Program-made: the position numbers and the translations under genes
Source: Pseudaquabacterium pictum
GTDB lineage: Bacteria; Pseudomonadota; Gammaproteobacteria; Burkholderiales; Burkholderiaceae_C
Assembly: GCF_005403045.1 (NCBI RefSeq)
Contig: NZ_BJCL01000017.1
Span: 1 to 64,000 of the forward strand
DNA length: 64,000 nucleotides
Direction: 5' to 3'
The notes under the pieces: generated by a model
Told to the model about the DNA's origin: nothing
The model's database searches: none
Seen by the model: the letters and a program-made list of their open reading frames with translations, nothing else
Shown: piece after piece, positions 45,323 to 62,000 of the stretch
How positions within the stretch are numbered: position 1 is the stretch's first letter
Layout: each line of letters begins with the position of its first letter

Positions 45323-46230
45323 GGCGCGGGCCGGTTGGCGGGCTGGTTGGGTACCGCAGCCTTGACGACGCGCGCCACACCCGGGACGGTTGTGCCGTCC
45401 TTGGGCGGCACGCCGTCGAGATCGAAGGCATCGTTGATGATGGCCGCGACGCTTTCACCCAGGCGCAGGACGAAGCGCCGACCAACACGGTCGGCGACGA
45501 GCAGGTCATCGGGGTCCATACGGGCGTTGACCATTTCCTCGCTGCCGTCCGGCGCGATCTGGAAGACAGTGGGGATGGGCCTGTTGTTCGGAAAGCTGAA
45601 GTAGGTCTGCGTGCCGTCATCGAACACCATGACTGGCACGATGTCCTCGGAGTCCTTGCCGGTGGCCACCGAGTAGGCGGAGTTGCGGACCAGGGGCTTG
45701 GTCTGCCAGCGGGCGTCGATTAGTTCCCTGGCGGTCGGCAACACCGGTGATGCGGCGACAGAGATCGGTCGCGGCACCATCGGCGCTGCAACAGTCAGAC
45801 GCATCAGCGTCAGGCCTGCGCCCTCGACGGGGTGCAGCAGGAAGGCGTGCCGGCGGCGGTCGGTGACGACGATGAGGTTCGTCGAGGTCGCGCCCGACTT
45901 GGGCTTGACGAACAAGTCGCGCCCTTGTTTGGCGATGCACCAGGTGTGGGCCTCGTCGCTGCAGTTCGACCCCTTGCCGCTGATCGGGATGCCGACGATC
46001 TGCTCGTCGTCGCCGAGCACGATCTGCGTGATCTGGCCGCGCCGCACCGGCACGTCCACCACCATGTCGGCCGCGAACAGCACGGTCCGAAGACGCGGGT
46101 CCGGTGTCGTGCGCTGGCCAGGCTGGATCGGCTGCGCGGTCGCAGACATCAGAAGAGCCGGTGCGAAGAGCGCAGCGCCAAGTACCGCGACCGCGCCGAC
46201 CGGCGCGATCCACTTCGAGGTGGCCTTCAT
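45319..46230 (-). CDS. virB9: T4SS outer-membrane complex protein VirB9
   Basis: A 303-residue periplasmic protein with an N-terminal signal region (hydrophobic 10-31). N-terminal domain: DPRLRTVLFAADMVVDVPVRRGQITQIVL region and KPKSGATSTNLIVVTDRRRHAF; C-terminal VirB7/VirB10-binding domain: VMVFDDGTQTYFSFPNNRPIPTVF and LRLGESVAAIINDAFD. Together these give a full-length TrbG/VirB9 protein. It overlaps virB8 and virB10 by 4 bases each. Confidence 0.92.
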   Translation of the reverse strand: MKATSKWIAPVGAVAVLGAALFAPALLMSATAQPIQPGQRTTPDPRLRTVLFAADMVVDVPVRRGQITQIVLGDDEQIVGIPISGKGSNCSDEAHTWCIAKQGRDLFVKPKSGATSTNLIVVTDRRRHAFLLHPVEGAGLTLMRLTVAAPMVPRPISVAASPVLPTARELIDARWQTKPLVRNSAYSVATGKDSEDIVPVMVFDDGTQTYFSFPNNRPIPTVFQIAPDGSEEMVNARMDPDDLLVADRVGRRFVLRLGESVAAIINDAFDLDGVPPKDGTTVPGVARVVKAAVPNQPANRPAP

Positions 46231-47012
46231 GACGCGCCGCCTATGACCGTGTCGGCTGGTTTGGCCGGCGCCACCAGGTCAGCGTCGGCGCGGTAGCCAG
46301 TGACGACAAACCCGAACGGGTTCTCGATGCGGTCGGCCGGCTTCTTCATCGCGGTCGGCCGGTACTCGTAGCGCACCGTGGAGACGAAGCGGGTGGTCAC
46401 CGGCGACTGCCCCTGCGTCGGACGAATCTGCCGGTCGAAGGTCACCACCGCTTCGCCGGACTTGCCCGCGACGGGCGACCGGGTCAGCCGCACGGAAACT
46501 ACCGTCACCCGGTGTTCCTCCTTCGCTGCGATCACCGCCTGCATGGCCTTCTCGCCGGCGAACTGACTGCCGTATGGCGCCCAGGTGTCGGGGACCGTCA
46601 TGCGCGCGACCTGGTCGTAGTCGCGTTGCAGCAGCTGGAAGTTGTAGGACTCCCGGGCCCGCACAAACACGGCCGCGTTGTGCTGGTCCAGTGCAGCCAG
46701 CGCCGGGACGTTGGAGGCATCCAGCGTGGCGACGACGCTGGTCTCCCCCGTCGTCCGGTCCACCACGACCGGATACGGCGCCGGCGGCGGCCGCAGGCTC
46801 TGGAACGTCGCCATACTGAACCCCAGCACCGCCAGCACGCCACCGATGCCAGCGGCGATCCAGCCACGGCGGCCCGAGGCGATTGCCTGCGCGATGCGGT
46901 CCTGTTCCCAGCTGTTGGCCGCTGCGATGGCTGCAACGGCCTTCTTCGAAAGCGGCAGCCGGTCAGTCTGCGCGGCGTCGGGTACTGCAGCGGCTTCAAC
47001 TCTGTTGTTCAC
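46227..47012 (-). CDS. virB8: T4SS inner-membrane protein VirB8
   Basis: A 261-residue protein with one membrane helix (about 50-70) after a cytoplasmic tail, and a periplasmic NTF2-like domain typical of VirB8. The motif SYNFQLLQRDYDQVARM, the segment VSVRLTRSP and the conserved strand RFVSTVRYEYRP followed by NPFGFVVTGYRAD are family hallmarks. It nucleates assembly of the inner-membrane complex. Nine bases separate it from virB5. Confidence 0.9.
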   Translation of the reverse strand: MNNRVEAAAVPDAAQTDRLPLSKKAVAAIAAANSWEQDRIAQAIASGRRGWIAAGIGGVLAVLGFSMATFQSLRPPPAPYPVVVDRTTGETSVVATLDASNVPALAALDQHNAAVFVRARESYNFQLLQRDYDQVARMTVPDTWAPYGSQFAGEKAMQAVIAAKEEHRVTVVSVRLTRSPVAGKSGEAVVTFDRQIRPTQGQSPVTTRFVSTVRYEYRPTAMKKPADRIENPFGFVVTGYRADADLVAPAKPADTVIGGAS

Positions 47013-47021
47013 AGCCAGTCC

Positions 47022-47738
47022 TCAGTCTCGAATGAAGTCGGCGAGCCGACGATTGCGGGAGGCCTGTTCCAGCTGGCCCTCACGAGCCCGCGAGTCGGCC
47101 ACGCGCTGATCCGCCTCGGCCAGGCCGCGCATCAGCTCAATCTGGCTGACCTCGTGCTGCAGGAGGGCGTTCTCCGCGCCGATGCGGGCGGTGACCTCCT
47201 GGATCTCCTTCTGGTCGGATGTCGCGCCGGCCCGGCGCATCAGGCTGTTGATCTGGGCCACGCGGTCCTTGGCCTTGGAGAGCGCGTCCTCCATGAAGGC
47301 CTTCTGCTGGTACGGCTTGGCCAGCGTGCTCTGGCAGTTGGTGCGCTTGCCGGCGTCATCGACGTCCATGCAGTTGTAGGTCATCTGGGCGTCGCGCAGC
47401 GTCTTCGACGCACCAGCCAGCGTGCCGTAGCCGCCGGACTCCAGGCTGCGAACCATCGTGTTCGCTTCGCGCGGGACGTAGTTCTGCAGCGCCGGGTTGT
47501 TCAGCACGTCGCCCAGCGAGCGGGCGTTCGAGATCGACTCGATCTGCTGCCCCAGGCCCACGATCTGCTGGTATTGGTTCTCGATCTGCGAGATCCCGTT
47601 CATCACGTCGAGAACGGCCTGGATGATCGCGGCCACGTCGATCACGGGGATGCCGGCGCGTGCCGGTGCGCTGGTGCACATCATCATCACGCCTGCTGCG
47701 AAGGCTGCGAGCCCCGAACGGACCTTTGAACGCTTCAT
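47022..47738 (-). CDS. virB5: T4SS minor pilus protein VirB5
   Basis: A 238-residue secreted protein. A signal peptide (MKRSKVRSGLAAFAAGVMMM, cleavage likely after APARA) is followed by IPVIDVAAIIQAVLDVMNGISQ and long helices with QIENQYQQIVGLGQQIESI, the TrbJ/VirB5 pattern. Two Cys (YNCMDVDD and RTNCQSTL) may form a disulfide. The frame is open upstream, but ATG 47738 starts the signal peptide. It lies after virB6 rather than before it, a departure from the classical order. Confidence 0.88.
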   Translation of the reverse strand: MKRSKVRSGLAAFAAGVMMMCTSAPARAGIPVIDVAAIIQAVLDVMNGISQIENQYQQIVGLGQQIESISNARSLGDVLNNPALQNYVPREANTMVRSLESGGYGTLAGASKTLRDAQMTYNCMDVDDAGKRTNCQSTLAKPYQQKAFMEDALSKAKDRVAQINSLMRRAGATSDQKEIQEVTARIGAENALLQHEVSQIELMRGLAEADQRVADSRAREGQLEQASRNRRLADFIRD

Positions 47739-47788
47739 GACCTGTACTCCCGTGGTTTGCAAATGAGCTTGAAAAGACCGCTGACCCG

Positions 47789-48847
47789 TCACGTCGAAAC
47801 CCCGCCTCGCTGGGCGACCCGCTGATACGCAGCGCGAGCGCCACCGGCCACTGCACCGCCTGCCGAGCCCACAGCGCCCGCGGCTCTGCCGGCGACGTAG
47901 GCCGCACCGCCGCCTCGGGACAAACTTCCGCCGCCCCCCGCCGCACCGCTGCCTCCTGACCGACCGCCACCCATCGCACGCATGGCGACCATCGAGTTCG
48001 TGACCATCTGGGTGCCGCTCTGTATCGAGGCGCCACCCGTCAGGCTGGACGCGAGGGAAGGCGCCTGGAAGAGCACGATGGCCAGGAGGCACATGACGGT
48101 CAGATAGGTGCCTGCGGCTTCGAGTGCACCCACTGACCCGGGTACTCCGGCGACAAAGGCGCTGCCAGTGCTGATCGCCTGCAGAACTCTGTCGGAGACG
48201 TACAGGGACATGCCTAAGGCGAAGAACACGAACCACGACAACACGACAGCGCTCAGAACGAACGAGAGCCAGCTATCGAAGAAGCGTGCGGTCGACTTGA
48301 AGATCAGGCACAGGATCGCCAGCGGACCAATCGCAAGCGCGAACGTCAAGATCAGCTTGCCCAGCAGGCCGACAAAGGCCCCGAGGACGAGGAAGATCGT
48401 TGTGCCAAGTGAGAAGAGAACACTGGCGAGCACCAGGTCGAGGCGGAACATGCCCGCGTCCTTCCAAAGCAGTGCCAACTGCTCGTTCGCTTGGGTGTTC
48501 GCCAGGTCTAACGCGCCGAAGGCTGTCGTCGCGGCCGCCGCTCGCGGCGCAACGAACAGCGTGGCCAGTCCATCCTGCAGCCCTGTTGCCCAGGCGACCA
48601 CGTTGCCGCTGTAGTAGAGGCCAGGCAAGGCGAAGGAGAGGATGGCACCGACTTTCACCATCTTCCAAGCGAAGGTGCCCACGGGCTCGCTGGCTTCCCC
48701 GCGCATGACCGCCAAGCCGTAGACCGCGACGTAAATCGTCACAAGCAGGAGCGCAATCGGCACGAGCCCGACGGCAAGGTCACCCGACACTCGCGCGGCA
48801 TAGCCGACGAAGAACGTGTTGAACCAGGCTTCGAGCTTCGTGAACAT
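47789..48847 (-). CDS. virB6: T4SS inner-membrane channel protein VirB6
   Basis: A 352-residue polytopic membrane protein (about six hydrophobic segments) of the TrbL/VirB6 family. The core carries GTTIFLVLGAFVGLLGKLILTFALAIGPLAILCLIF and the adjacent RFFDSWLSFVLSAVV in separate pieces. The C-terminal 80 residues are Gly/Ala/Ser-rich and disordered. It forms part of the inner-membrane passage. It lies 6 bases after the unknown secreted gene and 50 before virB5. Confidence 0.9.
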   Translation of the reverse strand: MFTKLEAWFNTFFVGYAARVSGDLAVGLVPIALLLVTIYVAVYGLAVMRGEASEPVGTFAWKMVKVGAILSFALPGLYYSGNVVAWATGLQDGLATLFVAPRAAAATTAFGALDLANTQANEQLALLWKDAGMFRLDLVLASVLFSLGTTIFLVLGAFVGLLGKLILTFALAIGPLAILCLIFKSTARFFDSWLSFVLSAVVLSWFVFFALGMSLYVSDRVLQAISTGSAFVAGVPGSVGALEAAGTYLTVMCLLAIVLFQAPSLASSLTGGASIQSGTQMVTNSMVAMRAMGGGRSGGSGAAGGGGSLSRGGGAAYVAGRAAGAVGSAGGAVAGGARAAYQRVAQRGGVST

Positions 48848-48853
48848 GATCCG

Positions 48854-49288
48854 CTACTCCACCGTTCCCATTCCGCCCGGCACCCCCGCCGAAGCGGGTT
48901 CGCACTTGCGAGACGGGGCCCGCGATTCGCAATGCAGCCAGCTGCCGTTGACCTTCACCGTCCAGAAGCGAGACCGCTTGCTCGTGCCCAAGGATGAAGG
49001 GAGGCATCCGGTGCTCGAAAGGAAGACTCCGCGGCACTCCATCAGGCCTTCGGCGCTTTCGATCATGAAAACCTCGCTGCCCGGCGCTGGAGGAGCGGTC
49101 TTTCCTCCACCATCGACAAAGCGCTTCGCCGCGGCCGTCAGCGGAGGTGCTTCCACCACGCGCTTCCCATTGACGATTCGGACAGCCTCGTTGCCTGGGA
49201 ATGCCGGGCCTGTGGGCTCAGCTTGAGCCGTCACGCAAACGAGCGCGAACAGCGCTCCGATCGCGGCTGTGGTGGGTTGAAGTTTCAT
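48854..49288 (-). CDS. Unknown secreted protein in the T4SS operon
   Basis: A 144-residue protein with a clear signal peptide (MKLQPTTAAIGALFALVCV, cleavage likely after AQA). The mature part is rich in Gly, Pro and Ser with four Cys in two pairs (MECRGVFLSSTGC and LHCESRAPSRKC), suggesting two disulfides, and a WTVKVNGSW strand. I do not recognise it. The position between virB4 and virB6 is where eex/virB7-like small genes often sit, but it has no lipobox. It overlaps virB4 by 4 bases. Confidence 0.6.
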   Translation of the reverse strand: MKLQPTTAAIGALFALVCVTAQAEPTGPAFPGNEAVRIVNGKRVVEAPPLTAAAKRFVDGGGKTAPPAPGSEVFMIESAEGLMECRGVFLSSTGCLPSSLGTSKRSRFWTVKVNGSWLHCESRAPSRKCEPASAGVPGGMGTVE

Positions 49289-51738
49289 GCTGCCCTCCGG
49301 GCATGGCTGCGCCGATCGCGCACGCGCTGATAGAACAAAGGGAGCCAGGTTGTCGGTGCGTCACCGAACTCAGCACGAATCTGGTCGAGAAGTTCGACGT
49401 TGTCCGTGGTGGAACTGAGGACGGCCAGGAAGTCGTTCATGCCGCCGAGGTCGAACTCGCACTGGACCGAGTCCGTGCCCTGCTTGCACAGGAAGCGCCG
49501 CGAGCCCGTGGCGCCAAGCGACTTGACGATGGCGAATTCGGCATCGGTCAACCCGAGGCCGCCCACATACTCGTCGCGGTCGGCGTCCGCGTTGGGCAGC
49601 ACGAGCTTGGTGACCGACTGCTCGATCATCGTGCGCCCGTTCTCGTTGGAGAGCAGGTCGGCGACCTCCTGCGTGTCGAACAGGCCGAGGCCGTTCATCT
49701 TGCGGATGGTCTTCTGCTTGTGCTTCACGAACGGCGCGAACGCCGGGTCGCCAAGTGCCTTCCAGCACTCCGCGACGTGGTAGATCATCGGCTCGCCGTT
49801 GACCAGCTCGTCCATCACGTTGAGCAGGTACATCATGATCGGCGTGCGAACGTCCGGGCTGCTGAGCACGCCCGTGTAGTCGAAGCCGATGGCCATGTGG
49901 CTGCGCAGATCGCCGAGACGATCGTCGGCCATGTCGAAGACCCAACCCAGCTCGCCGCCCCGACACCACTTGCCCAGGCGGTCATAGAGGCTGTTGGCGC
50001 CAGAGCGCGGCAGCGACTGGCGGACCGTGCTGAACCACCGAAGCTCTGGCTTGAGCGCAGCGACCGTCGCAACGGCACGCGCGATGGCCTCGTGGTCGTT
50101 GGGCAGCAGCGGCATCTCGGGTGACGCGATGCACTGCTTGACCAGTTCGGTCCAGAACCCGATGCGCTCGGGGGTCACGTCGCGCTGGAACGGGTTGCAG
50201 CCCGTGGGCTGGTTGCGGTCGAAGGTGTAGAACACACCGCCCAGCGCCCGGATCACGATCTCGGTGTCGCGGTCCAGGCTGAAGCTGACCACGCGAGGCC
50301 GAACGGCCCACTTGGGCGTCAGGGCCAGCAGGCCAGTCAGCAGCGTCGTCTTGCCCGAACCGGTCGAGCCGATCACGATGGTGTTGCCGGGAAGCTTCTT
50401 GCCTTCGCTGTCTTCGCCTTCGGGGCTGGCGTGCAGGTTCAGATAGAACGGGTTGCCGGCCGGCGTGCGCATCAGCGCCAGGGCTTCACCCCAGGGGTTG
50501 CCGTCGCGCTTGCCGCGCAGGAAGTTGTGGCCGCAGGTCAATGCCGCGAAGGCGCGGCTGCTGATCGTGGCCTTGCGCGGACGCCACTGAAAGTTGCCGG
50601 GCTGCTGTGAGAACCACGCGGCATCGGCCACCAGGTCCACGGGCACCAGCTCCATCGCGGTGGTTTCCGTCAGCGCTCCGACTGCGCTTGCCGCACGCTT
50701 GCCGCATTCTTCGAGCGTGTCGCCAAACACCGCCAGGGTGTAGCTGTATTCGCCCATGACGAACTGGCCATCGCCCAGCTGGTCGAGCGCCACGTCCATC
50801 GCTTCGATCTGCGTGACCACTGCGTCGTCGGACGCGAGCAGCTGATCGCGCTGCGTGGTCAGAGCGGCCATCGCCTGCCGGCGTGGCAGGCTGGAGAAGC
50901 TCTGCGTCTCGATGAACTCCGAGTCTTCGTAGAGCAGCGCGCCGAGCGTGCCGGGTTCGACCTGGCCGGCGAACTCCTTGATCGACAGCATCGAGGCGTA
51001 GCGCCGACGCTCGCCCTGCCGGATCTCCAGCATGCCGCCGCCGAAGGTCAGGCGAGCGTCTGGCAGCGCCTGGTACGCGGGGCCGGTGGGGAAGCGCACC
51101 TTGCGCCACACACCGTTGATCAGGAAAGAGAACAGCTCGCCCGACTCCCAAAACAGGTTCCCGCCCTGTTCGTAGCAGCCGAGCAGGGTCGGTCCGAACT
51201 CGCGCAGGCTGCGCTCGATGAGCGCGCCCTGCTGCTCCATCGTGGCCAGGGTCTGGGCCTGGTGGTCAGCGAGGCTCTGCTTGGTCTTTTCGCTGCGGGC
51301 GCTGCGCTTGGCCAGCTCCGACGGAAACGGCCGGTACAGCAGCGTGATGTACAGCTCGTTGGACATCATCGGCGCGACGCTGATGCGGTCCTGGTAGGCC
51401 TTGGAGAAGGCTGCGCTGAACTCCGGCTCGGTCGCATCGGTCAGCCGGTCATGGATGCGCCTGTGGATGCGGTGGTGATAGATGGCCGTACGGCCCGCGG
51501 GAAGGTTGCGCAGCACGTTGCACCAGGCGTCGTGCCGATCCTTGATGAGGTTGAACTCGGCACTCTCGAAGGCGACGCCATCGAGGCGCCAGACCCGCAG
51601 GCAGTCGCCCGACCGCGTTGCGGTGTCGTGCTGCGAGAGCGGCGCGCCGATCGAGACGAACTCGCCGACGTTGGATTCCTTGCCCGCGCGCTCCCAGTAG
51701 CGCGGAGTGGCACGTTCGGGGCTAACGGCGCCAAACAT
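49285..51738 (-). CDS. virB4: T4SS ATPase VirB4 with unusual Walker B
   Basis: An 817-residue secretion ATPase of the VirB4/TrbE (CagE) family. The N-terminal domain is complete, and Walker A is normal (VIGSTGSGKTTLLTGLL, about residue 445-460). The segment corresponding to Walker B reads MIYHVAECWKALGD where the family has a DE pair before the W-K-A-L motif, so the first acidic residue is replaced by Ala while Glu remains. LKTIRK-like KQKTIRKMNGLGLFDTQ and a late Arg finger region are present. ATG 51738 is chosen (17-base overlap with virB3); 51768 is possible. Confidence 0.92.
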   Translation of the reverse strand: MFGAVSPERATPRYWERAGKESNVGEFVSIGAPLSQHDTATRSGDCLRVWRLDGVAFESAEFNLIKDRHDAWCNVLRNLPAGRTAIYHHRIHRRIHDRLTDATEPEFSAAFSKAYQDRISVAPMMSNELYITLLYRPFPSELAKRSARSEKTKQSLADHQAQTLATMEQQGALIERSLREFGPTLLGCYEQGGNLFWESGELFSFLINGVWRKVRFPTGPAYQALPDARLTFGGGMLEIRQGERRRYASMLSIKEFAGQVEPGTLGALLYEDSEFIETQSFSSLPRRQAMAALTTQRDQLLASDDAVVTQIEAMDVALDQLGDGQFVMGEYSYTLAVFGDTLEECGKRAASAVGALTETTAMELVPVDLVADAAWFSQQPGNFQWRPRKATISSRAFAALTCGHNFLRGKRDGNPWGEALALMRTPAGNPFYLNLHASPEGEDSEGKKLPGNTIVIGSTGSGKTTLLTGLLALTPKWAVRPRVVSFSLDRDTEIVIRALGGVFYTFDRNQPTGCNPFQRDVTPERIGFWTELVKQCIASPEMPLLPNDHEAIARAVATVAALKPELRWFSTVRQSLPRSGANSLYDRLGKWCRGGELGWVFDMADDRLGDLRSHMAIGFDYTGVLSSPDVRTPIMMYLLNVMDELVNGEPMIYHVAECWKALGDPAFAPFVKHKQKTIRKMNGLGLFDTQEVADLLSNENGRTMIEQSVTKLVLPNADADRDEYVGGLGLTDAEFAIVKSLGATGSRRFLCKQGTDSVQCEFDLGGMNDFLAVLSSTTDNVELLDQIRAEFGDAPTTWLPLFYQRVRDRRSHARRAA

Positions 51739-52054
51739 GGCGGCCCCCTCGGTAGCCGACGGGCGCATAGCTGCGCGCCCCGCTGCGCAGCACCCGGTTC
51801 GGGTTGCGCACCGCCAGCTTGAGTTTCAGGACCATCTGCGTGAGGCGCTGATCGTCCCGGCTCGTGACGATGCGCATCCAGACATAGGCCACCGCGAGCG
51901 AGCCGAAGATGACCGGCGCGAAGCGCCAGTTCACCATCGTGGACAGCCACATGCCGGAGATGAACCCCGGCAGCAGCAGAACCACCAAGGGGACCAGCGG
52001 CACCCCGAATTTCATCGGGGGGCGTGTGGCCCCTTTGAACACGGTCTCGATCAC
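51722..52054 (-). CDS. virB3: T4SS protein VirB3
   Basis: A 110-residue inner-membrane protein typical of VirB3/TrbD: VFKGATRPPMKFGVPLVPLV at the N-terminus (the conserved KGATRP), two adjacent hydrophobic segments (about 19-36 and 46-62) and the cytoplasmic motif DDQRLTQM. It works with VirB4 in pilus assembly. It lies 3 bases after virB2 and overlaps virB4. Confidence 0.9.
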   Translation of the reverse strand: MIETVFKGATRPPMKFGVPLVPLVVLLLPGFISGMWLSTMVNWRFAPVIFGSLAVAYVWMRIVTSRDDQRLTQMVLKLKLAVRNPNRVLRSGARSYAPVGYRGGRHVWRR

Positions 52055-52057
52055 GGC

Positions 52058-52384
52058 TCAGCCCATGAAGACCGCGGCGATCGCGGCGGCTGCGCCGGCG
52101 ATGGCGCCACCGAACAGCAGGTTGGACACGTCGCGGAAGCTGGCGCCGGCGAACATGATCTTGTAGCCGGCCATGCCGACTCCGACCGTCATCAGCAGCA
52201 GCGTGATGGCCACGACGGTGTCGCGCGCGATCGTGGCGCCCCGCACGACTGGCTCCAGGGCCTGCGCCATCGCGGGGTTGGAGGCAGCGAGCGCCGCGCC
52301 GAAGACCAGCAGCGCCAAGCCGGCGCGGACGGCGGTGACGGACGGGATGGGGCGGACCGAAGGTTGATGGCGGGTGAAGTTCAT
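52058..52384 (-). CDS. virB2: T4SS major pilin VirB2
   Basis: A 108-residue prepilin with a long signal peptide (about 1-41, ending NPAMA before QALEP). The mature peptide of about 67 residues has two hydrophobic helices (TVVAITLLLMTVGVGMAGYKIMFAG in parts, and NLLFGGAIAGAAAAIAAVF), the TrbC/VirB2 pattern. ATG 52384 overlaps the virB1 stop by 4 bases; the longer open frame upstream lies inside virB1. Confidence 0.9.
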   Translation of the reverse strand: MNFTRHQPSVRPIPSVTAVRAGLALLVFGAALAASNPAMAQALEPVVRGATIARDTVVAITLLLMTVGVGMAGYKIMFAGASFRDVSNLLFGGAIAGAAAAIAAVFMG

Positions 52385-52884
52385 TGCGAGGCTCCTGGGT
52401 TGACGGATGCGGTGACGTGGGAGAACGAGGGGGGCTTTGACGACCACGCTGCGAGGACCTTGCCCACGTAGCCGTGTTGGTGACCGGTCAGGAAGTTGCC
52501 GGAGTAGTAGCAGCTGAAGGCGTCTCGCAAAGCCGCCTGCTTCGGTGCGCGTCGGCTTGCGCGAGAGAAGCACTCGCCCAAGATGCCCTGCATGGCGGTG
52601 AGATTCGCGCAGGGCCCGAACGCGGTCGCTGGACTCAGGCCGTAGCGGTCGAAGTTGCGCTTGTTGATCTGGCCGAGGCCAACGCTGTAGTTCCACCCCG
52701 CCGCTTCCAGCGCGGCGACCGTGGCCAGGGCCTCGGGAAGATTGACGGGCTGGCGCACGAGTGCGCCGCCGACCACGCCGATGGCGAATGGGTTGCCGCC
52801 GCTTTCGACCTGGATCAGGGCGCGTGCCGTGTCCTGCGCGACCAGCGGCGCGCAGGTCAGCACGAGGGCGGCCAGGTCAATCAC
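52381..52884 (-). CDS. virB1: VirB1-like lytic transglycosylase
   Basis: A 167-residue SLT-fold enzyme that opens the peptidoglycan for the secretion machine. The catalytic Glu is in ALIQVESGGNPFAIGV; YSVGLGQINKRNFDRYGL and a late AFSCYYSGNF complete the family pattern. The N-terminus is short but hydrophobic (ALVLTCAPLVA), a possible signal peptide. It overlaps both neighbours by 4 bases. Confidence 0.9.
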   Translation of the reverse strand: MIDLAALVLTCAPLVAQDTARALIQVESGGNPFAIGVVGGALVRQPVNLPEALATVAALEAAGWNYSVGLGQINKRNFDRYGLSPATAFGPCANLTAMQGILGECFSRASRRAPKQAALRDAFSCYYSGNFLTGHQHGYVGKVLAAWSSKPPSFSHVTASVNPGASQ

Positions 52885-53462
52885 CCGCCGCCGCCTTGGG
52901 CGGCTGCTGCCGCAGCGGCAGCCTCGGCAGCAAGCCGGACCTGTTCACTGATGACCCACGCCGCGTGGTCGCGGTCGAAGCGTTCGTCCATGGCATCCGG
53001 CGAGTTGGCGAATGCCGCCTTCGCTGCGGGCAGCCACTCGACCACCGAGTCACCCGAAGGGGACCACCAGGTGCGCGACCACGGTCGTCCTTCGACAGCG
53101 ACATGGATCACACCGCTGAAGGGGCAGCTGTAGATGGGCCGGCCGCTCTCGTCGCTGCCGGCGTTGGTGATGTACTGCTCCGGGCACTGCTCGGGCGCCA
53201 CGTACTGGTTGCCGCTGGCACTGTTGCCGCCCATGCTGCAGGTCGGCCAGCCGCGACCGCGCGCCACGTCCCGCAGCGCCTGGCGCACGGTGGGCGTGCA
53301 CTGGCTGATGTTCTGCCAGTTGCCCGCCATGCACAGCAGTAGCTTGCAGCCGTCGACCGCGTGCGCCGGGCCGCTGAGCCCCAGGCCGAGGCCTAGAACG
53401 AGGCCGAAAGGGGCAGCAAGTCTCACTAGGGGCCGGATTGCGGTGCTGAAATGTGCTTTCAT
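52881..53462 (-). CDS. TrbM/KikA/MpfK-like secreted protein
   Basis: A 193-residue protein with a signal peptide (LAAPFGLVLGLGLGLSGPAHA). The region after cleavage, DGCKLLLCMAGNWQNISQC followed by TPTVRQALRDVARG, fits the TrbM/KikA family, whose members are found at the edge of conjugation operons. A further Cys set (PTCSMGG, EQCPEQY, YSCPF) and an Ala-rich C-terminus (AAEAAAAAAAAQGGGG) follow. It is the first gene of the T4SS operon and overlaps virB1 by 4 bases. ATG 53462 fits the signal peptide; longer starts are unlikely. Confidence 0.7.
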   Translation of the reverse strand: MKAHFSTAIRPLVRLAAPFGLVLGLGLGLSGPAHAVDGCKLLLCMAGNWQNISQCTPTVRQALRDVARGRGWPTCSMGGNSASGNQYVAPEQCPEQYITNAGSDESGRPIYSCPFSGVIHVAVEGRPWSRTWWSPSGDSVVEWLPAAKAAFANSPDAMDERFDRDHAAWVISEQVRLAAEAAAAAAAAQGGGG

Positions 53463-53533
53463 TGCCAACCTTTCGCTGGTGTGAAGACCTGACGCCATAC
53501 AGTAGCAGGAAAAGACAATGTAGCAGAGTAAAA

Positions 53534-53546
53534 CGTGCATGGCACG
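53534..53546. promoter_or_regulatory. Inverted repeat in the divergent T4SS/regulator promoter region
   Basis: CGTGCATGGCACG is a perfect 5-3-5 inverted repeat in an A/T-rich intergenic region (53463-53630) between the T4SS operon and the divergent regulator. It lies 72 bases upstream of the first T4SS gene and 85 upstream of the regulator, a natural place for an operator controlling both. Confidence 0.35.
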
Positions 53547-53630
53547 CAAATATCCTCTGTTACACGATATGGACAAACTCATGAAGACAAAAAGTTGCGT
53601 GATAAGCAATGAATGGCCACGAGGTGTGCA

Positions 53631-54491
53631 GTGAACACTCGTTCTACCGCCCCGCCACCCCCGTCAGAGCCAGCAAAGGCGGAGGCCCAGGGCTCCCTCG
53701 CTGCCACCTGCATCCGGGCCCTTCTCGACCGGGCCGGCCTCCCGAGGCACAGGCAATCGGCACACATCGCCGGCCTGCTCAGCCTGTCGTACCACCAGGC
53801 CCACCGTCGCATGACGGGGATCGCTCCGTGGTCGCTGGAAGAGCTTCAGACCGTCGCCACGCACCACGGCGAGACCCTGGTGGACCTGTTCGGCGAACAG
53901 AAGTCAGCGGACTACGAAACCGCGCTGCTCATTGCCGGGCCGTTGCGCGTCACCTGCCGGCTCTGGCCTGGTCAGCCCCTGTCGCAGCATCGGCCGGGCG
54001 ACCTCATCGCGATCAAAGGCGGGTCGGAGTGGGTGGTGATGGTGGCCGGCGACACGCCGACACCACAGGCCTGCACGGTGCGGCGACTCATCATCGAGCC
54101 GAAGCCGGATCGGCCGCGCCGCTTTGCGATCCTCGACGACGACATCGACGTTGCCCGAAGCCTTGCGGCCGGCCTGGTCGAGCTGGGCTTCGAGGCCACG
54201 GCGTTTGCGACCGAGGCGCAGCTTGACGCTGCCCTGCAGTTCGACAGCTTCGACGCCTACGTGATCGACTGGGTTCTGCCAAACGGCACGGCCGAGGCGC
54301 TTGTCACCAAGCTGCGGAGCCAGAGCGCCACTTGCCCCATTGCGCTGTTGACCGGCAAGGCCGGCAGCAAGGAAGTCGACGAGAAGGACCTGGTCGCGGC
54401 CATCGAACAACATGGGCTCCTGTTCCTGCAGAAGCCGATGACCGCCTCGATCGCGGCGAGCCAGTTCAGTGCGGCGTTCGCCAACAGATAG
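53631..54491 (+). CDS. HTH-receiver regulator divergent from the T4SS operon
   Basis: A protein of about 286 residues with unusual domain order. The N-terminal ~90 residues look like a helix-turn-helix domain (RQSAHIAGLLSLSYHQAHRR, then WSLEELQTVATHHG; BetR-like). A middle beta-rich part follows, then a complete C-terminal receiver with an acidic pocket in ILDDDIDVARSL, acceptor Asp in AYVIDWVLP, Thr in ALLTGK and Lys in LQKPM. Response regulators normally have the receiver first. GTG 53631 has a GAGG ribosome-binding site at good distance; ATG 53613 is possible. Its position suggests it controls the transfer operon; the partner kinase may be the convergent gene or another nearby. Confidence 0.75.
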   Translation: MNTRSTAPPPPSEPAKAEAQGSLAATCIRALLDRAGLPRHRQSAHIAGLLSLSYHQAHRRMTGIAPWSLEELQTVATHHGETLVDLFGEQKSADYETALLIAGPLRVTCRLWPGQPLSQHRPGDLIAIKGGSEWVVMVAGDTPTPQACTVRRLIIEPKPDRPRRFAILDDDIDVARSLAAGLVELGFEATAFATEAQLDAALQFDSFDAYVIDWVLPNGTAEALVTKLRSQSATCPIALLTGKAGSKEVDEKDLVAAIEQHGLLFLQKPMTASIAASQFSAAFANR

Positions 54492-54515
54492 ACCGCGATC
54501 GGACCAGGCTGTGAA

Positions 54516-56900
54516 TCAGGCGCGCGAGTGGGCGCGCAGTGGAAGCGTGATGTGAAAGGTGCTTCCCTCGCCAATTCGGCTTTGAACGCCCACCGAACCC
54601 CCTTGGGCCTCGATCATCCGTCGGACCAATGCCAGGCCCAGGCCGGTTCCTTCATGCGTCTTCGTATTGCCAGAGCTGAGCTGATGGAACTGGTTGAAGA
54701 GCCGCGGCAAGTCGGCTTCGGAAATGCCGATCCCGTGATCCTCGACCTCGACGCGGAAGTGCGACTCCCCTTCGAGGCGAGCGCGGACATCGATCCGGCC
54801 GTACTCGTTCGAGAACTTCACTGCATTGCTCAGCAAGCTCAAAAGGACCTGCCGCAGCCGTGCCGGGTCCACCTCTGCCTCGATCAAGTCGCTGCTCACC
54901 ACTGAGGTTGCCACGACGCGCTTCCGCTCGCAGGTGTCCTGCAGCATGTCGATGACATCGTTGATGACGTGAGCGACAAATGTCCGCTCCGGCCGGAATT
55001 CCATCCTTCCCGACTGCGTCTTTGCAAAGTCGAGCATCGAATCGATCAGCTGCAGCAGATGCTTGCCCGACGCACCGATCTGCGTCAGGTACGGGACGTA
55101 CTTCGGAGACCCGGGCTTGATCGTGCCGGACTGCAGGAGGTGCGCGTAGCCGATCACTGCATTCAGCGGCGTGCGCAATTCATGCGACATGTTGGAGACG
55201 AACTGGTCCTTCAAGCGTCCGGTTTCCTGCAACTGCGCATTCTGGCTTTCGAGTTCGATCAGCTTGATGCGCGCTTCTTCTGCGTCCTTCAGCGACGTGA
55301 CATCGACCAGCAGCAACATGACTTCGCCACGCTCAACCGACAGCGTGGCGCCACTGACGTCGATCCAGATGGGTGAGCCGTCCTTGCGCCTCATCTGGAC
55401 CTGCTCCCGATACCTGCCTGCATCGCGCATGGCGGCATAGGCGTCACGTCCAATGCGCTCATAGGTTTCGTCGTCCAGATACAGACAACGGACCGGCATG
55501 TCTTGCCATTCGGCCTCGCTGTAGCCGAACAGGCGCCCCATGCCCCCGTTCGCCCATATCACGCGGCGATCCCGCAGCCTGACGATGCCCACGAGGTCGT
55601 TGTCCAGCATGGCCTGTTGCTCGCGGCTCAACTGCTGCAGTTGCACACGGGTCCGATGCAATTCCGTGATGTCGAACATGACTGTCCGGGACATCAAGAA
55701 GGAGCCAGCGGCATCCTTCATCGCGGTGGCCGTCACACTGACGCGCCGACCAGGCCCTGCCGCTGGGGCAAGATCGAACTCCAGTCCCTCCACGCGCCCG
55801 CTCGTCATCAGCTTGGCGAAGTTTTGACGAAACTGCTCTTGCCCCTCGGGCGTGAAGAACTCAACCATGCGGCGCTTGCCGATCAAGTCTTCCCGCCTGC
55901 ACCCCAGCCAAGATGCGGCGGTTGCGTTGATGTGAAGGAACGTGCCAGTGGCGTCCAGCGAGTGATATCCGCTGGGCGCGTTGTCGTAGAGATCCTGTAC
56001 CTCGGCCATTGCCGTTGCGAGCTTCAGTTCCAGGTTCTTGCGCTCGGTGATGTCCTGGAAGGCACCCACCAGCCGCTTTGGCTTGCCGTCCTGAAACTCG
56101 ACAGCCCCCACGGCCCGGGCCCAGATGCGCTGACCATCTGCACAGATCAGCGGCAGTTCGAGGTCCCACGCCTCACCTGCGGCGATTCCGCGCTCGACGG
56201 CCGCCTGAATCACCGGCCTGGCCTCGGGCGCGTAGAAGTTGATTGCCTCCGACATCACCGGCTTGAAGTCGGAAGCGACGCGATGGATGCGCCGCGTTTC
56301 CGCCGACCAGGTGATCTCACCCGTGGCGATGTCCACTTCCCAGCCGCCGACACCTGCAACCCGCCCTGTCCGGTCGAGAAAGTCTTCGCTCTTGCGGAGC
56401 AGCTGACTCGCATGGCGGCCTTCCAGCGCCTGGGCAGCCACACTGGCCAGCGCCCGCAGAATCTCCCGCTGCGTGTCGGTCAGGCGCCGCGGCTGCCGGT
56501 CGATGATGCACAAGGTGCCTACGCGGTGACCGCTGCTCAGCTGGACAGGCGCGCCAGCGTAGAAGCGGACGCCGGGCTCGCCGGCGACCAGCGGGTTATC
56601 GGCGAACCGCGCGTCCTGCTCGGCGTCCGGAACTTCGAACAACTCGTCACCCAGGACGGCATGGGCGCAGAACGCGACGCTCCGCGCTGTCTCAGTCACC
56701 CCGGGAAGGCCGATATTGGCCTTGAACCACTGGCGATCCGCATCGACCAGGCTGATCAGCGCGATCGGGGTACCGCACGCGAGCGATGCCGCACGGGCGA
56801 GCGCGTCGAATTCCGCCTCGGGCGGGCTGTCCAGTACCCGCAGGGCGTTCAGCGCTTCGAGGGTCTGGGCCTCGTCGGGACGCGGATCGGCTGACTGCAT
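54516..56900 (-). CDS. Soluble GAF-PAS3 sensor histidine kinase
   Basis: A 794-residue kinase without membrane helices. It has an N-terminal GAF domain (about 20-165; IALISLVDADRQWFKANIG, FCAHAVLGDELFEVPDA, RFYAGAPV) and three PAS modules (about 175-550). The phosphoacceptor motif SNMSHELRTPLNAVIGYAHL and an ATPase domain (VEVEDHGIGISEADL, then GTGLGLALVRRM) follow; there is no receiver. A GAGG ribosome-binding site supports ATG 56900. It converges on the HTH-receiver regulator (24 bases apart) and diverges from the receiver-first kinase. The signal is unknown. Confidence 0.88.
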   Translation of the reverse strand: MQSADPRPDEAQTLEALNALRVLDSPPEAEFDALARAASLACGTPIALISLVDADRQWFKANIGLPGVTETARSVAFCAHAVLGDELFEVPDAEQDARFADNPLVAGEPGVRFYAGAPVQLSSGHRVGTLCIIDRQPRRLTDTQREILRALASVAAQALEGRHASQLLRKSEDFLDRTGRVAGVGGWEVDIATGEITWSAETRRIHRVASDFKPVMSEAINFYAPEARPVIQAAVERGIAAGEAWDLELPLICADGQRIWARAVGAVEFQDGKPKRLVGAFQDITERKNLELKLATAMAEVQDLYDNAPSGYHSLDATGTFLHINATAASWLGCRREDLIGKRRMVEFFTPEGQEQFRQNFAKLMTSGRVEGLEFDLAPAAGPGRRVSVTATAMKDAAGSFLMSRTVMFDITELHRTRVQLQQLSREQQAMLDNDLVGIVRLRDRRVIWANGGMGRLFGYSEAEWQDMPVRCLYLDDETYERIGRDAYAAMRDAGRYREQVQMRRKDGSPIWIDVSGATLSVERGEVMLLLVDVTSLKDAEEARIKLIELESQNAQLQETGRLKDQFVSNMSHELRTPLNAVIGYAHLLQSGTIKPGSPKYVPYLTQIGASGKHLLQLIDSMLDFAKTQSGRMEFRPERTFVAHVINDVIDMLQDTCERKRVVATSVVSSDLIEAEVDPARLRQVLLSLLSNAVKFSNEYGRIDVRARLEGESHFRVEVEDHGIGISEADLPRLFNQFHQLSSGNTKTHEGTGLGLALVRRMIEAQGGSVGVQSRIGEGSTFHITLPLRAHSRA

Positions 56901-57076
56901 CTCGGTATACCTCGATTCTTTCAGGGCGTTCGCCGAGCGTACCAAGCACCGGCACGTGGCACCTTCGTGCTGGCGCCGGGCAAGATTGTCCCGCAAGCTC
57001 GGTCCCAACCTAACGGCGCAGATCAAGCCACCCGACGGGCACACAATGTGTGTCGCGCACAACATGTGGAGCGATG

Positions 57077-58993
57077 ATGCAAGCTCAAACCGTCTTGATC
57101 GTGGAAGACGAATCCGTCGTTGCCCTCGATCTGAAGCTGCAGCTCAGGAAACTCGGGTACGAAGTCTCGGGCGTGGCTGGCAGCGGCGAAGAGGCCGTCG
57201 AACTGGTGGCCCAGGGGCAGCCGGACATCATCCTGATGGACGTTCGCTTGCGGGGTCAGATCGACGGGATTCAGGCCGCCGAGCGGATCAGACGCAACCA
57301 CGACGTTCCGGTCATCTTCCTCACATCACACAGCGACGATGAGACCGTGCAACGTGCGGCCCAGACGGCCCCGTACGGCTACCTCACCAAGCCATACCAG
57401 ATCAAGGAGCTCCGCGCCGGCATCGAAGTTGCGCTGACGAAGGCCCGCATTGAGCGGCAGCTGCGCGAGTCCGACCAGTGGTTCGCGCACACCTTACGCT
57501 GCGTGGACGACGGTGTCGTGTTGACGGACCTGGAGGGCTGCGTGCGGTTCGTGAATCCAGCCGCCGAGCGACTCACCGGATGGCGCATCGACGACTCGAT
57601 AGGAAGGTCATTGAATGAGATCGCGACCGTTACCCGGAGCAGTGGGGCCTCGGATTCGTTGACGGATCAGGACATCGAGCCCATGGCACTGGTGCGTCAG
57701 GTCATCTCCGGCGGGCGTCCTACTCCGACCATCCATGCCGTCACATTGACTTCGCGCGACGGCATCGACACCGTGATCGACGAGACCGCCGGACCAGTGG
57801 ACGACGGACGCGGCAAGCGGCTAGGTGCGGTCCTGATCCTGCGTGACGCCACCGAGCGTATGGCCCACGAGGCCATGCTGCGTGCGAGCGAAGAGCGGTT
57901 TCGCGGTGCCTTCGACAATGCGCCCCTGGGCATGGCACTGGTCTCATTCAATGGGGAGTTCATCCAGGTCAATGCGGCACTCTGCCAGTTGCTGGGAACG
58001 ACAGCGGACGAACTCAAACGCCAGTCTCAAGCCAGCCTGGCCAGTAATGACGACCGCGCGCACGAGACGCGGCGCCTGAGCGAACTCATGAGGTCCACGC
58101 AGGGAGTGGTCCAGTTCGAGCAACACTACCGCCGGTTGGACAGCGGGGAACCCATCCCCACCCTGGTCAGCGTTTCGCTGATGCGCGAAGGCAATCAGCC
58201 GACCTGTCATCTGTACCAGGTGTACGACCTCACGGAGCAGAGGAAGGCCGCTCGCCACTTGGCTGAACTCGCAGAAGAACGCATGCGCCGTGAGTCGATC
58301 GAGATGGCCAGCAAGGCGAAGAGCGAGTTCCTCTCGCGAGCCAGTCACGAGATGAGGACACCGTTGAATGCCGTGATCGGGTTCGCGCAGCTGCTGGAAT
58401 TTCAACAGGGAAGCGACCCAGCGAAGACGACTGACTATGCCAAGCACATCAAGACAGCTGGAGAACACCTGCTGCACCTCGTGACGGACGTGCTCGACCT
58501 GAACAGCGCGGCGCAAGGCACCCTGAAGATGTCTCCGAAATCTGTCGACGTCTTAGCCGCAATCAATGAGGCTGTCCAGCTGCTTGAGCCCTTGAGCACT
58601 TCGCATGGCGTCGACGTCCGCGCCTCTGGGCCGCCCGACCTGACAACCTTCGTAGATCCCACTCGCCTGCGGCAAATCCTGCTGAACCTCGGCTCGAATG
58701 CGATCAAGTACAACCGCCAGGGCGGCGAGGTGCGGTTCCAGGCCAGTCATTCTCCGGATGGGCGGATGCTGGTGATCATCGAGGACACTGGCATCGGCAT
58801 GACCCGCGAGCAGATGGAGCGGCTATACCAGCCGTTCGACCGCCTGGGACAGGAGCGCACCAAAATTCCGGGGGTCGGACTGGGATTGGTGATCGCAAAG
58901 GGCCTCGTGGGTGAAATGGGCGGAGACCTGGAGATCACAAGCCAGCCACGCAGGGGAACGACAGTCACGATTTACCTGCCTGCTCCGGCCTGA
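57077..58993 (+). CDS. Receiver-first histidine kinase (REC-PAS-PAS-HK)
   Basis: A 638-residue soluble protein. The N-terminal receiver has acidic residues in LIVEDES, acceptor D55 (IILMDVRLRGQIDG), Thr/Ser in FLTSHSD and Lys in YLTKPYQ. Two PAS modules (about 140-390) follow. The HisKA motif SRASHEMRTPLNAVIGFAQLL and an ATPase domain (IEDTGIGMTREQM, GVGLGLVIAKGL) complete it. A GGAG ribosome-binding site is best placed for ATG 57077. Such REC-HK proteins act as middle steps in phosphorelays. The next kinase starts 28 bases downstream, so they are probably cotranscribed. Confidence 0.88.
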   Translation: MQAQTVLIVEDESVVALDLKLQLRKLGYEVSGVAGSGEEAVELVAQGQPDIILMDVRLRGQIDGIQAAERIRRNHDVPVIFLTSHSDDETVQRAAQTAPYGYLTKPYQIKELRAGIEVALTKARIERQLRESDQWFAHTLRCVDDGVVLTDLEGCVRFVNPAAERLTGWRIDDSIGRSLNEIATVTRSSGASDSLTDQDIEPMALVRQVISGGRPTPTIHAVTLTSRDGIDTVIDETAGPVDDGRGKRLGAVLILRDATERMAHEAMLRASEERFRGAFDNAPLGMALVSFNGEFIQVNAALCQLLGTTADELKRQSQASLASNDDRAHETRRLSELMRSTQGVVQFEQHYRRLDSGEPIPTLVSVSLMREGNQPTCHLYQVYDLTEQRKAARHLAELAEERMRRESIEMASKAKSEFLSRASHEMRTPLNAVIGFAQLLEFQQGSDPAKTTDYAKHIKTAGEHLLHLVTDVLDLNSAAQGTLKMSPKSVDVLAAINEAVQLLEPLSTSHGVDVRASGPPDLTTFVDPTRLRQILLNLGSNAIKYNRQGGEVRFQASHSPDGRMLVIIEDTGIGMTREQMERLYQPFDRLGQERTKIPGVGLGLVIAKGLVGEMGGDLEITSQPRRGTTVTIYLPAPA

Positions 58994-59021
58994 AGCTCAG
59001 CGCAGACATTACGCGAAAGAC

Positions 59022-62000
59022 ATGACCAAGTCGGAACTGGAAGCAAACGCCGAGGCCGTCAGATTGGATCGGCTTCGATCCCTGCAGGTCCTGGACAGTG
59101 AGCCAGAGGTCATCTTCGACCAGGCGACCCGACTGGCGGCCGATCTCTGCCTTGTCCCCTTCGCGTTGATCAGCCTGATCGACAAAGACCGCCAGTGGTT
59201 CAAGTCGAACATCGGCCTCAGCGGCAACTCAGAAACCGCGCGCGTCCTGGCGTTCTGCTCGGAGACCTGCCGCAGCGATGATCTGCTTGAAATCGCAGAT
59301 GCATCGAAGGAGCCAAGGTTCTCCACAAATCCTATGGTCACTGGTGAGCCGCACATCCGCTTCTATGCAGGCTCGCCGATCGTCATGCCGGGTGGCGAGC
59401 GTGTCGGCACCTTGTGCGTGATGGACCGCGTGGCGAGGCAGCTCGTCGAGGGTCAGCGAACAGCATTGACCGGCCTGAGCCGGATGGTCGCGACGGCCCT
59501 TCTGGAGCGCGAGCGCCGACTCAAGCTCGTCGGCGACCTGGCTCGCACCGAAGCGACGTACCGTACGATCGTCGAGGGGCAATCCGAACTGGTGTCGCTC
59601 GCGGACGAAGTCGGTACTCTGACCTACGTGAACGGCGCCTATGCCGAGTTCTTCGGCCTGCAGCCGGAGTCCATGGTCGGTCGGAATTTGTTCGAGTTTG
59701 TGGCCGAGAACGACCGCGAGTCGGTGGCCTCGCATATGCGGCGCGTTCTTTCGGAGGGCGTCGGGGAGAGTGTGGCCAACCGAATGGTGTGCGCACGGGG
59801 CGAGGAACGGTGGGTCGCTTGGACCAATCGGGTGGTCCCTGCTCAGGAAGGCCTGGGTCGAGCCATCCACTCGGTCGGTAGAGACGTCACCCGGCAGAAG
59901 CTCACCGAAGAGGCACTGGAGCAGTCCGAACGGCGAACCCGGCTGCTGTACGAGTCGACGCCGGCCATGCTGCACTCCATTGACCCAAAGGGGCGCCTGG
60001 TCAACGTCAGCGATGTCTGGCTCAGGACACTGGGCTACGAACGTGCTGAGGTCATTGGGCGGCCCGTGGTGGAACTCCTCACGCCGGACTCACAGCGGCG
60101 CGCCCTTGAGGAGGAGCTTCCCGGTTTCTTCAGAAGTGGTTCGTGCGACAACGTGCCGTATCAGATGGTGAGTAAGGACGGAAAGGTGCTCGACGTGCTG
60201 TTGTCAGCCGTCCTGGAACGCGACGCGGATGGGGAACCGCTGCGATCACTTGCCGTCGTGAGGGACGTCAGCGAACTCAGGACCACTGCGGCGCAACTAC
60301 GCGAGTCGAACCATGTCCTGCAATTGGTGCTCGACAGCGTGCCGGCACGTATCAGTTACTGGAATGCTGCCAGCCGGAACCAGCTTGCCAATCGCGCTTT
60401 CCTGGAAGGGTACGGCGTCACCCAGGCAGAAATCACAGGAAGACACGCGAAAGACGTACTGGGCGCCGACTGGTACCAACGCATACAGGCACCGATTGAG
60501 CGCGGCCTGGCGGGACATGCCGGTCATGTCGAAGTGTCGTTCGTGACACCCAACGGGCTCCGCCGTGACGTTGACATGCACTTCACGCCCGACCTGCGTG
60601 AGGGTCAGGTCCATGGCCTGTTTGTCTTCGCGCTGGATGTCACCGCTCGGCGCGAGGCCGAACGCGGCTTGGCTGATCGCGAGAAGCGGTTCAAGCTGCT
60701 GATCGACGGTGTGCGGGACTACGCCATCTACATGCTCGACGCGGAAGGCCGCATCGCCACCTGGAGCGCCGGCGCCGAACGAACAAAGGGGTTTCGTGCG
60801 GCCGATGTGGTCGGCAAGCATTTCAGGATGCTCTTCACCCCGGAGGACATTGCCGCGGAGAAGCCTGAGCAAGAGCTCGCCGAGGCGGCCATCGAGGGGC
60901 GGTTCGAAGCTGAAGATTGGCGCATCCGCGCTGACGGGCGCAGGTTCTGGGCAGGCATCACCTTGAGCGCGATTCGGAACGACAGAGGCCACCTGGTCGG
61001 GTACGCGAAGATCACCCGCGACCTGACCGAGCAGATGAAGCAGAAGCTCGTCCTGGAGCGCGCCGTCGAGCTGGCGCCCTGCGCGATGCTGATGGTCGAC
61101 GCCTCCGGCACCATCCTGATGGTCAACGCGCAGACCGAAAGCACTTTCGGCTACGCGCGCGACGACCTGCTTGGCCAGCCACTTGAGAAGCTGATCCCCA
61201 CGCGGTGGCGTGATCAGCACGAGCGCCTGCGGGCAGGCTTCCTGGCGCATGCCACGGTGCGAACGATGGGCGCGGGGCTGGAGTTGCGGGCGATGCGAAG
61301 CAATGGTGAGGAGTTCCCCGTCGAGATTGGCCTGAGCCCGATCGAATCGGCCGACGGGATCACCACGCTGGCGGCCATTTTCGACATCACCGAACGACGC
61401 CGGCAGCAGGCCTTGATCGAACAAGCACTGGCGGAGAAGGAGACGCTGCTCAAGGAGGTCTACCACCGGGTCAAGAACAACCTGCAGGTCGTGCAGAGCC
61501 TCCTGAGCCTGCAGAGCCAGACCTTGCCCGACGGCGCGGCTCGGGAGGCCGTGGACGACAGCGCGCAACGGGTGCGTGCCATGGCGCTCGTGCACGAAAA
61601 GTTATACCAGTCGGGGAACCTGTCCGCCGTATCACTGCAGGTCTATGTGAAGGACCTGGTTGACCAGATCGCCGAGGCACTTGGCACTGATCGGCGCAAA
61701 GTAAGGCTCCATCTGGACATCGCCGATGTCCAGACCGGACTCGACAACGCGGTACCGTTCGGATTGCTGCTGACCGAGCTGATAACGAACTGTCTCAAGC
61801 ACGCGTTCGAAGGCCGGCAGAGCGGCGACATTTGGGTGCGCCTGAGTCGAGAGGCCGACGGCGACCATCTGACCGTCTCCGACAATGGTGTCGGCCTCCC
61901 TACCGGCTTCAACTCAGCAGCGCAGTCGACATCGATGGGATTGCAACTGGCCGATGGCTTGGCTCACCAACTGGGTGGGCAGCTTCGCGCGCATACAGCG

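Follow-up and report, generated by a model that had tools for sequence, protein, structure and literature searches.

A putative pterin-responsive PruR-like/hybrid kinase/BetR module beside the conjugation genes of a probable Pseudaquabacterium pictum plasmid

What controls the conjugation genes of this DNA, and which signal reaches them? The window, i.e. the whole stretch of DNA analysed, comprises the first 64,000 bases of a 123,905-base contig. It contains a response regulator gene divergent from a VirB/D4-type secretion (T4SS) operon. The original prediction, made from the letters of the window, placed this operon under two-component control. The regulator, the operon and the region between them are as follows.

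53631..54491, + strand: response regulator with an N-terminal BetR-type helix-turn-helix (HTH) domain and a C-terminal receiver (PF08667, PF00072, conserved residues)
53463..53630: intergenic region between the T4SS operon and the regulator, presumed operator region
52881..53462, − strand: opening gene of the divergent operon; its product has a leader-like N-terminus and matches no Pfam family
52381..52884, − strand: VirB1-type lytic transglycosylase (SLT; PF01464, 7.4e-7)
52058..52696, − strand: VirB2/TrbC pilin (PF04956, 1e-7)
49285..51768, − strand: VirB4 ATPase (PF03135, 2.4e-34; TIGR00929, 1.9e-183)
47789..48847, − strand: VirB6/TrbL (PF04610, 2.1e-29)
47022..48236, − strand: VirB5-type protein (PF07996 T4SS, 6e-51, match in residues 195-384)
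46227..47012, − strand: VirB8 (PF04335, 4.3e-36)
45319..46230, − strand: VirB9/CagX (PF03524, 1.7e-40)
44015..45322, − strand: VirB10/TrbI (PF03743, 5.8e-45)
42972..44018, − strand: VirB11-type ATPase (PF00437, 7.4e-23)
40957..42990, − strand: VirD4/TraG coupling protein (PF02534, 1.6e-106)

The ORF of the regulator at 53631-54491 is open on the + strand. GTG at 53631 is its likely start, because the alternative in-frame ATG at 53613 has no counterpart in the other eight upstream regions of the alignment. Residues 22-155 match BetR (PF08667; E = 6.4e-17; 62.5 bits against a cut-off of 21.6) and residues 167-271 match Response_reg (PF00072; E = 1e-8; 35.7 against 30.2). Thus, the HTH does come first and the receiver last, as had been claimed. 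This order had also been called reversed; it is normal for the family, since BetR and the receiver were present in all 18 relatives scanned with Pfam. The expected catalytic residues are complete: D169/D170 form the acid pocket, D213 is the phospho-accepting Asp, and T241 and K268 are the conserved Thr and Lys. D169, D213, T241 and K268 are invariant in an alignment of the 18 relatives, which makes the use of phosphorylation probable. The cysteine C109, located in the middle region, is likewise invariant (18/18 relatives). In the AF2 model (mean pLDDT 71; alignment of 9 rows), a five-helix N-terminal bundle lies within residues 18-87, with block means mostly 75-95. The receiver (161-286) is well modelled and the middle beta region (88-158) poorly. 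The HTH part alone gave no match to PDB sequences by phmmer. Foldseek with the model matched receiver-type structures in the 50 rows listed and is therefore uninformative on the HTH.

The divergent arrangement was confirmed: genes of VirB1, 2, 4, 5, 6, 8, 9, 10, 11 and VirD4 type all lie on the − strand. The VirB2/TrbC match covers only residues 123-209 of its ORF, so the true start lies further inside 52058-52696. The operon thus encodes a genuine T4SS, with enough of its components present for conjugation. It ends with a gene for an LPD7-domain protein (38553-40247), in which no relaxase domain was detected; a relaxase-domain gene is located at contig 110441-110692, some 70 kb from the LPD7-domain protein gene. 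The two ends of the contig share an overlap of exactly 127 bases, and the contig is therefore probably a circular plasmid of ~123.8 kb. VirA-VirG is a two-component system that controls a VirB operon. This type of control would be common to both cases, but VirG is a receiver-first protein, and its DNA-binding domain, of OmpR type, is unrelated to the BetR HTH.

Four histidine kinase genes lie to the right of the regulator, as the original prediction stated. A fifth gene, just beyond the end of the window and hence invisible to that prediction, completes the neighbourhood.

54516..57065, − strand: HK1, a GAF-PAS-HisKA-HATPase kinase, judged to be cargo
57050..58993, + strand: HK2, judged to be cargo
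58911..62039, + strand: HK3, judged to be cargo
62224..63984, − strand: HK4, a hybrid histidine kinase with HisKA, HATPase_c and receiver domains (Pfam)
contig 64099..64593, − strand: PruR-like protein gene, 165 residues, outside the window and directly upstream of HK4 (PF00174, 1.5e-6)

In near relatives, the T4SS lies on one side of the regulator and an HK4 counterpart on the other. An HK4 orthologue with 68-84% identity was found at six of these loci (L002, L003, L005, L006, L007 and L008; L numbers designate loci). Where the whole interval between regulator and kinase is visible (L003, L005, L006, L007, L008 and pT29A, L058), the HK4 counterpart is the sole kinase kept, and in L007 the HK4 gene directly adjoins the regulator gene and is convergent with it. 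The PruR-like gene and the HK4 counterpart are the constant features beside the regulator, and the rest of the interval changes. No counterparts of HK1-HK3 occur in this interval in the near relatives, and other cargo is found instead; HK1-HK3 are therefore best read as cargo. HK4 is thus probably the conserved kinase partner of the regulator, rather than the kinases at 54516-58993. The original prediction had named the kinases at 54516-56900 and 57077-58993 for phosphotransfer tests. The possibility that HK1 and/or HK2 (54516-58993) drive the regulator draws on their being its nearest kinases, but we regard it as very improbable because they are missing from the corresponding interval, which holds other cargo including defence genes. 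As candidate partners, HK1-HK3 were rejected. The interval itself appears to be a cargo slot, which is occupied by the three histidine kinases in the window (54516-62039) and by defence genes in near relatives: PtuA/PtuB (L008), BovA (L006), PDC-S52 (L058) and PDC-M05A (L005). A weak GajA/AriA-like ATPase occupies the slot of L003.

HK4 homologues have two transmembrane segments and a periplasmic part of ~140 amino acids. The true start of HK4 is probably a few bases beyond position 64000. Its best NCBIfam match is TorS (8.8e-53), below that family's own cut-off.

The protein encoded directly upstream of HK4 matches Pfam Oxidored_molyb (PF00174, 1.5e-6), as do 9 of the 11 members of its family. 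The profile of these 11 members matched pterin-binding proteins in the PDB (7kos/7kou, 2.5e-38; 7rkb, 1e-37; also 7kom and 7kp2) over a range of 2.5e-38 to 4.6e-32, and its match to sulfite oxidase was only 0.009. With a low-confidence model of the protein (mean pLDDT 59), the top seven Foldseek matches were all PruR structures, in keeping with a SUOX-like fold. According to a review, PruR lacks the Mo-ligating Cys, has Trp there instead, and places Tyr and Trp at the pterin (PMC13259868). The plasmid protein has TGTPWT, LDDY and IWQ and contains no Cys. Among the 11 members, Trp stands at the Cys position (Phe in one), Tyr is kept (Phe in two) and Trp-Gln is seen; the residue before Asp-Tyr is Asn or Asp. 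Its N-terminus, MKRRALLGSMALAALPSMASA, is leader-like by eye. From the profile matches and the retained pterin-site residues we infer that the protein is PruR-like, of the periplasmic pterin-binding type, with a pterin as ligand. A molybdenum enzyme was considered and rejected on account of the missing conserved Cys ligand and the poor sulfite oxidase match.

The module resembles two described systems. In Serratia marcescens BetR-Reg1-Reg2 (EepR-EepS), Reg1 has been called a possible sensor protein of the periplasm, and the signal is stated to be unknown (PMC7618870). By gene content the two are alike: a putative periplasmic protein, a transmembrane kinase with a receiver and a BetR regulator in one locus. 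Unlike the plasmid module, the Serratia system is described there as chromosomal and genus-core, controlling T6SS, antibiotics, motility and adhesion (PMC7618870). Here the genes are plasmid-borne beside a conjugation T4SS, and HK1-HK3 separate the regulator from the kinase. As in PruR-DTB, which consists of PruR and a TorS/BaeS-like kinase (PMC13259868), a PruR-like gene immediately precedes the gene of a TorS-like kinase that has a periplasmic part. A WX7E motif is reported for the periplasmic part of PruR partner kinases (PMC13259868). This motif was found in none of the 13 kinases aligned, of which 10 keep its Trp; the module is therefore PruR-DTB-like and not filed as a strict member. Agrobacterium tumefaciens PruR-DcpA shares the type of sensor protein, but its output, as given in the same review, is c-di-GMP turnover and not a phosphorelay (PMC13259868). 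Term searches of PMC13259868 gave no mention of a response regulator, plasmid, conjugation or BetR. We found no literature joining BetR regulators, PruR-like proteins and conjugation; coverage was partial, with few subscription papers and preprints, so that this absence is weak. What appears to be new here is a conjugation-linked branch of the PruR-like/hybrid kinase/BetR phosphorelay.

The following mechanism may be proposed. What can be read from the DNA is that the parts exist and are conserved together, that the T4SS is divergent, and that the contig is a probable circular plasmid with a relaxase gene; we infer the pterin ligand, phosphotransfer from HK4, a DNA site, the T4SS as target and the sign of regulation. 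The presumably secreted PruR-like protein (contig 64099-64593) would bind a pterin, likely a reduced one, in the periplasm, and the pterin-bound protein would dock on the periplasmic part of HK4. HK4 would then pass phosphate to D213 of the regulator, either directly or via its own receiver. The state of the receiver would set the binding of the BetR HTH to the shared intergenic region 53463-53630, and the DNA-bound regulator would switch the divergent VirB/D4 operon and its own gene. That such a pterin-responsive phosphorelay controls conjugation on this plasmid is, in our judgement, fairly probable, and we consider activation the likelier sign.

The stretch 53400-53660, which spans the shared intergenic region, is highly conserved, with a mean column identity of 93% among nine near-relative loci. 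Two dyads stand out in the intergenic region.

53595..53609: TTGC-N7-GCAA dyad, weak candidate operator, arms invariant in 9/9 near relatives
53534..53546: CGTGCATGGCACG palindrome (CGTGC-N3-GCACG), intact in 6/9 near relatives

The original prediction had singled out this palindrome for footprinting on 53463-53630. CGTGC-N3-GCACG is broken in three of the nine near relatives (L003, L005 and L008) despite the 93% identity. With up to one mismatch, the window contains 7 copies of the pattern where chance alone would give 11.7, so there is no excess; it was rejected as operator. The exact form of TTGC-N7-GCAA occurs in 6 of 66 upstream regions, with p = 8e-5 before 776 tests but no significance after correction. 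As a family-wide operator it is not established, and the motif search over the 66 upstream regions yielded no cross-family operator. No sigma-70-like promoter was found at 53300-54700.

Is the association with conjugation genes general? In a census of 78 loci with a full-length regulator, a module-type kinase was found within 12 kb in 63, a PruR-like gene in 58, and both in 58. In 55 of these 58 loci the PruR-like gene is beside the kinase according to a script that missed the P. pictum locus, where it took HK2 as the kinase. The kinase has a C-terminal receiver in 60 of the 63 loci. The three kinases without it (L066, L108 and L112) indicate that direct transfer to the regulator is possible. 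The census left out L074-L080 (weak BetR-only matches, no full-length BetR-REC), L113 (an ordinary OmpR-type regulator matching at 7e-7), L009 (regulator cut by a contig end) and L082 (a near-duplicate of L081).

A conjugation T4SS is nearby in 25 of the 78 loci; 23 of them have it upstream of the regulator in divergent orientation, the exceptions being the Rhizobium plasmids L060 and L105, with the T4SS elsewhere. Two-component control of conjugation is thus plausible. The T4SS-near label was set by hand: loci with a single VirB11-type ATPase match 5.8-6.9 kb away (L132 and L136), with contig ends cutting the T4SS side (L002, L006 and L007) or without a T4SS protein in the stretch (L058, L083 and L084) were not counted. 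The 25 loci include kin, namely the group of five to which the P. pictum locus belongs, L062/L081, L065/L114 and L063/L106/L107/L117/L118, and represent roughly 13 separate lineages. By PLSDB typing or gene content, they cover MPF_T (Pandoraea L065, Salmonella/E. coli IncY-type L062 and L081, Paraburkholderia L063), MPF_F (Serratia L087, Pantoea L066) and MPF_I (Klebsiella L061). At three T4SS-near loci (L004, L062 and L110) the kinase or the PruR-like gene is not in view; insertion sequences are present there in L062. In the other 53 loci a T4SS was not counted nearby, and 36 of them still have the kinase and the PruR-like gene, which means that the family also has roles other than conjugation. 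Most of the 53 come from one family of the order. A regulator relative (E ≤ 1e-25) occurs in 142 of 299 genomes of that family, and 40 of its loci were taken from the matches listed.

The regulator is accessory: a full-length relative occurs in 1 of 21 genomes of its own genus. In a class-wide sample of 369 genomes the full-length regulator was found in its own genome only, and in a phylum-wide sample of 398 genomes in only four; the other matches over the threshold in both samples were receiver-only. The near relatives come from Rubrivivax-type and Burkholderiales MAGs, and plasmid pT29A of Methylibium sp. T29 matches at 95%. By tblastn against 72,556 PLSDB plasmid records, 426 have a regulator relative, and 380 of the 426 are typed conjugative; 221 are from Klebsiella, many of them near-identical, so the 426 are not independent cases. 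For comparison, an ordinary OmpR-type regulator gave 2246 conjugative records among its 5000 best PLSDB records. The regulator tree took 75 of the 78 regulators (L006, L062 and L118 were left out), and several long branches were flagged as unsure. On 70 rows, 23 of them linked, it requires at least 7 switches between the T4SS-linked and the unlinked state, a number without a shuffled-label control. MPF_T, MPF_F and MPF_I rows are intermixed in one well-supported enterobacterial clade. At least 7 changes together with the mixed MPF types fit the idea that the sensing module may have been joined to transfer genes several times.

T4SS-linked loci often have one extra gene between regulator and kinase. 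A short-chain dehydrogenase/reductase (SDR) with TGX3RXG and YX3K is present in six modules, three T4SS-near (L065, L114 and L133) and three unlinked (L121, L124 and L150); the regulators of L065 and L114 are identical. The Arg in TGX3RXG is given as specific for pteridine reductases in PMC13259868. This Arg is present in 6 of 8 SDR-like ORFs in module spans versus 0 of 9 outside. Among solved structures, the L065 SDR is most closely related to 5bt9 and to 5tgd, which is named FolM. No pteridine reductase is in view in the window's own module. A GT9 (heptosyltransferase)-like gene is present in 11 of the 25 T4SS-near loci versus 1 of the 53 others, and the conjugation-linked GT9-like modules span two separate clades. 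In Pfam scans of these GT9-like genes, that of L063 matched weakly and two others gave no match. A GNAT is in the slot of two Pantoea plasmids. It is conceivable, but quite doubtful, that excreted pterins gate the transfer of many proteobacterial plasmids by conjugation, with a slot enzyme (pteridine-reductase-type SDR, GT9-like glycosyltransferase or GNAT) tailoring the signal. If so, this tailoring of the pterin would create a plasmid-specific mating signal. GT9-like genes were observed at L059, L061, L062, L063, L081, L087, L106, L107, L111, L117, L118 and L123.

Other explanations differ from the proposed phosphorelay in signal, target or sign. The PruR-like protein may bind another small molecule, or signal redox or fold state, with the T4SS still as target. 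The Asn/Asp variation before Asp-Tyr could point this way, since it is tied to possible specificity differences in section 7 of PMC13259868. However, the match to solved pterin-binding proteins, the retained pterin-site residues and the pteridine-reductase-type SDR in six modules make a non-pterin signal rather unlikely. Alternatively, the regulator may be a host-lifestyle regulator carried on a plasmid, acting mainly on chromosomal genes such as those for host T6SS and motility, and its adjacency to the T4SS would then reflect plasmid layout. Such a role would suit the 36 of 53 loci that keep kinase and PruR-like gene with no T4SS counted nearby, and the T6SS, antibiotics, motility and adhesion control by Serratia BetR reported in PMC7618870. 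The divergent placement in 23 of 25 loci, the three T4SS types and the minimum of 7 linked/unlinked changes on the tree, the last without a shuffle control, argue against it, and we consider it decidedly unlikely.

The same module may also work with the opposite sign, the unphosphorylated regulator repressing the T4SS until the signal relieves it, or its receiver may work without phosphorylation. We regard this as a possible, if tentative, alternative. The sign is not readable from the sequence, and negative autoregulation of BetR is reported for Serratia (PMC7618870). The receiver residues, invariant in 18 relatives, speak against a receiver working without phosphorylation; repression as such is not contradicted.

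If the proposed pterin-responsive phosphorelay is right, a single sensing module would govern conjugation on numerous plasmids whose transfer machineries are unrelated, among them plasmids from clinical Enterobacteriaceae, and would take as its input a metabolite of the folate branch. Since this arrangement is found again on many conjugative plasmids that are not related, a small metabolite that is secreted may tune plasmid spread. The Serratia BetR system would also gain a testable signal, and PruR pterin sensing would be joined to BetR regulation; in the passages covered of PMC13259868 and PMC7618870, neither literature mentions the other's parts.

Some further features were observed. Another PruR-like gene of this genome lies outside the plasmid (G000:C13:2656-3126; 2.6e-38). 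No tRNA gene was found in the window or in L067 and L068. A transposase gene with DUF772 and DDE domains lies at 35399-36835, near the end of the T4SS/LPD7 block, and genes for the alpha and beta subunits of a respiratory nitrate reductase are located at 20383-25709 on the same presumed plasmid.
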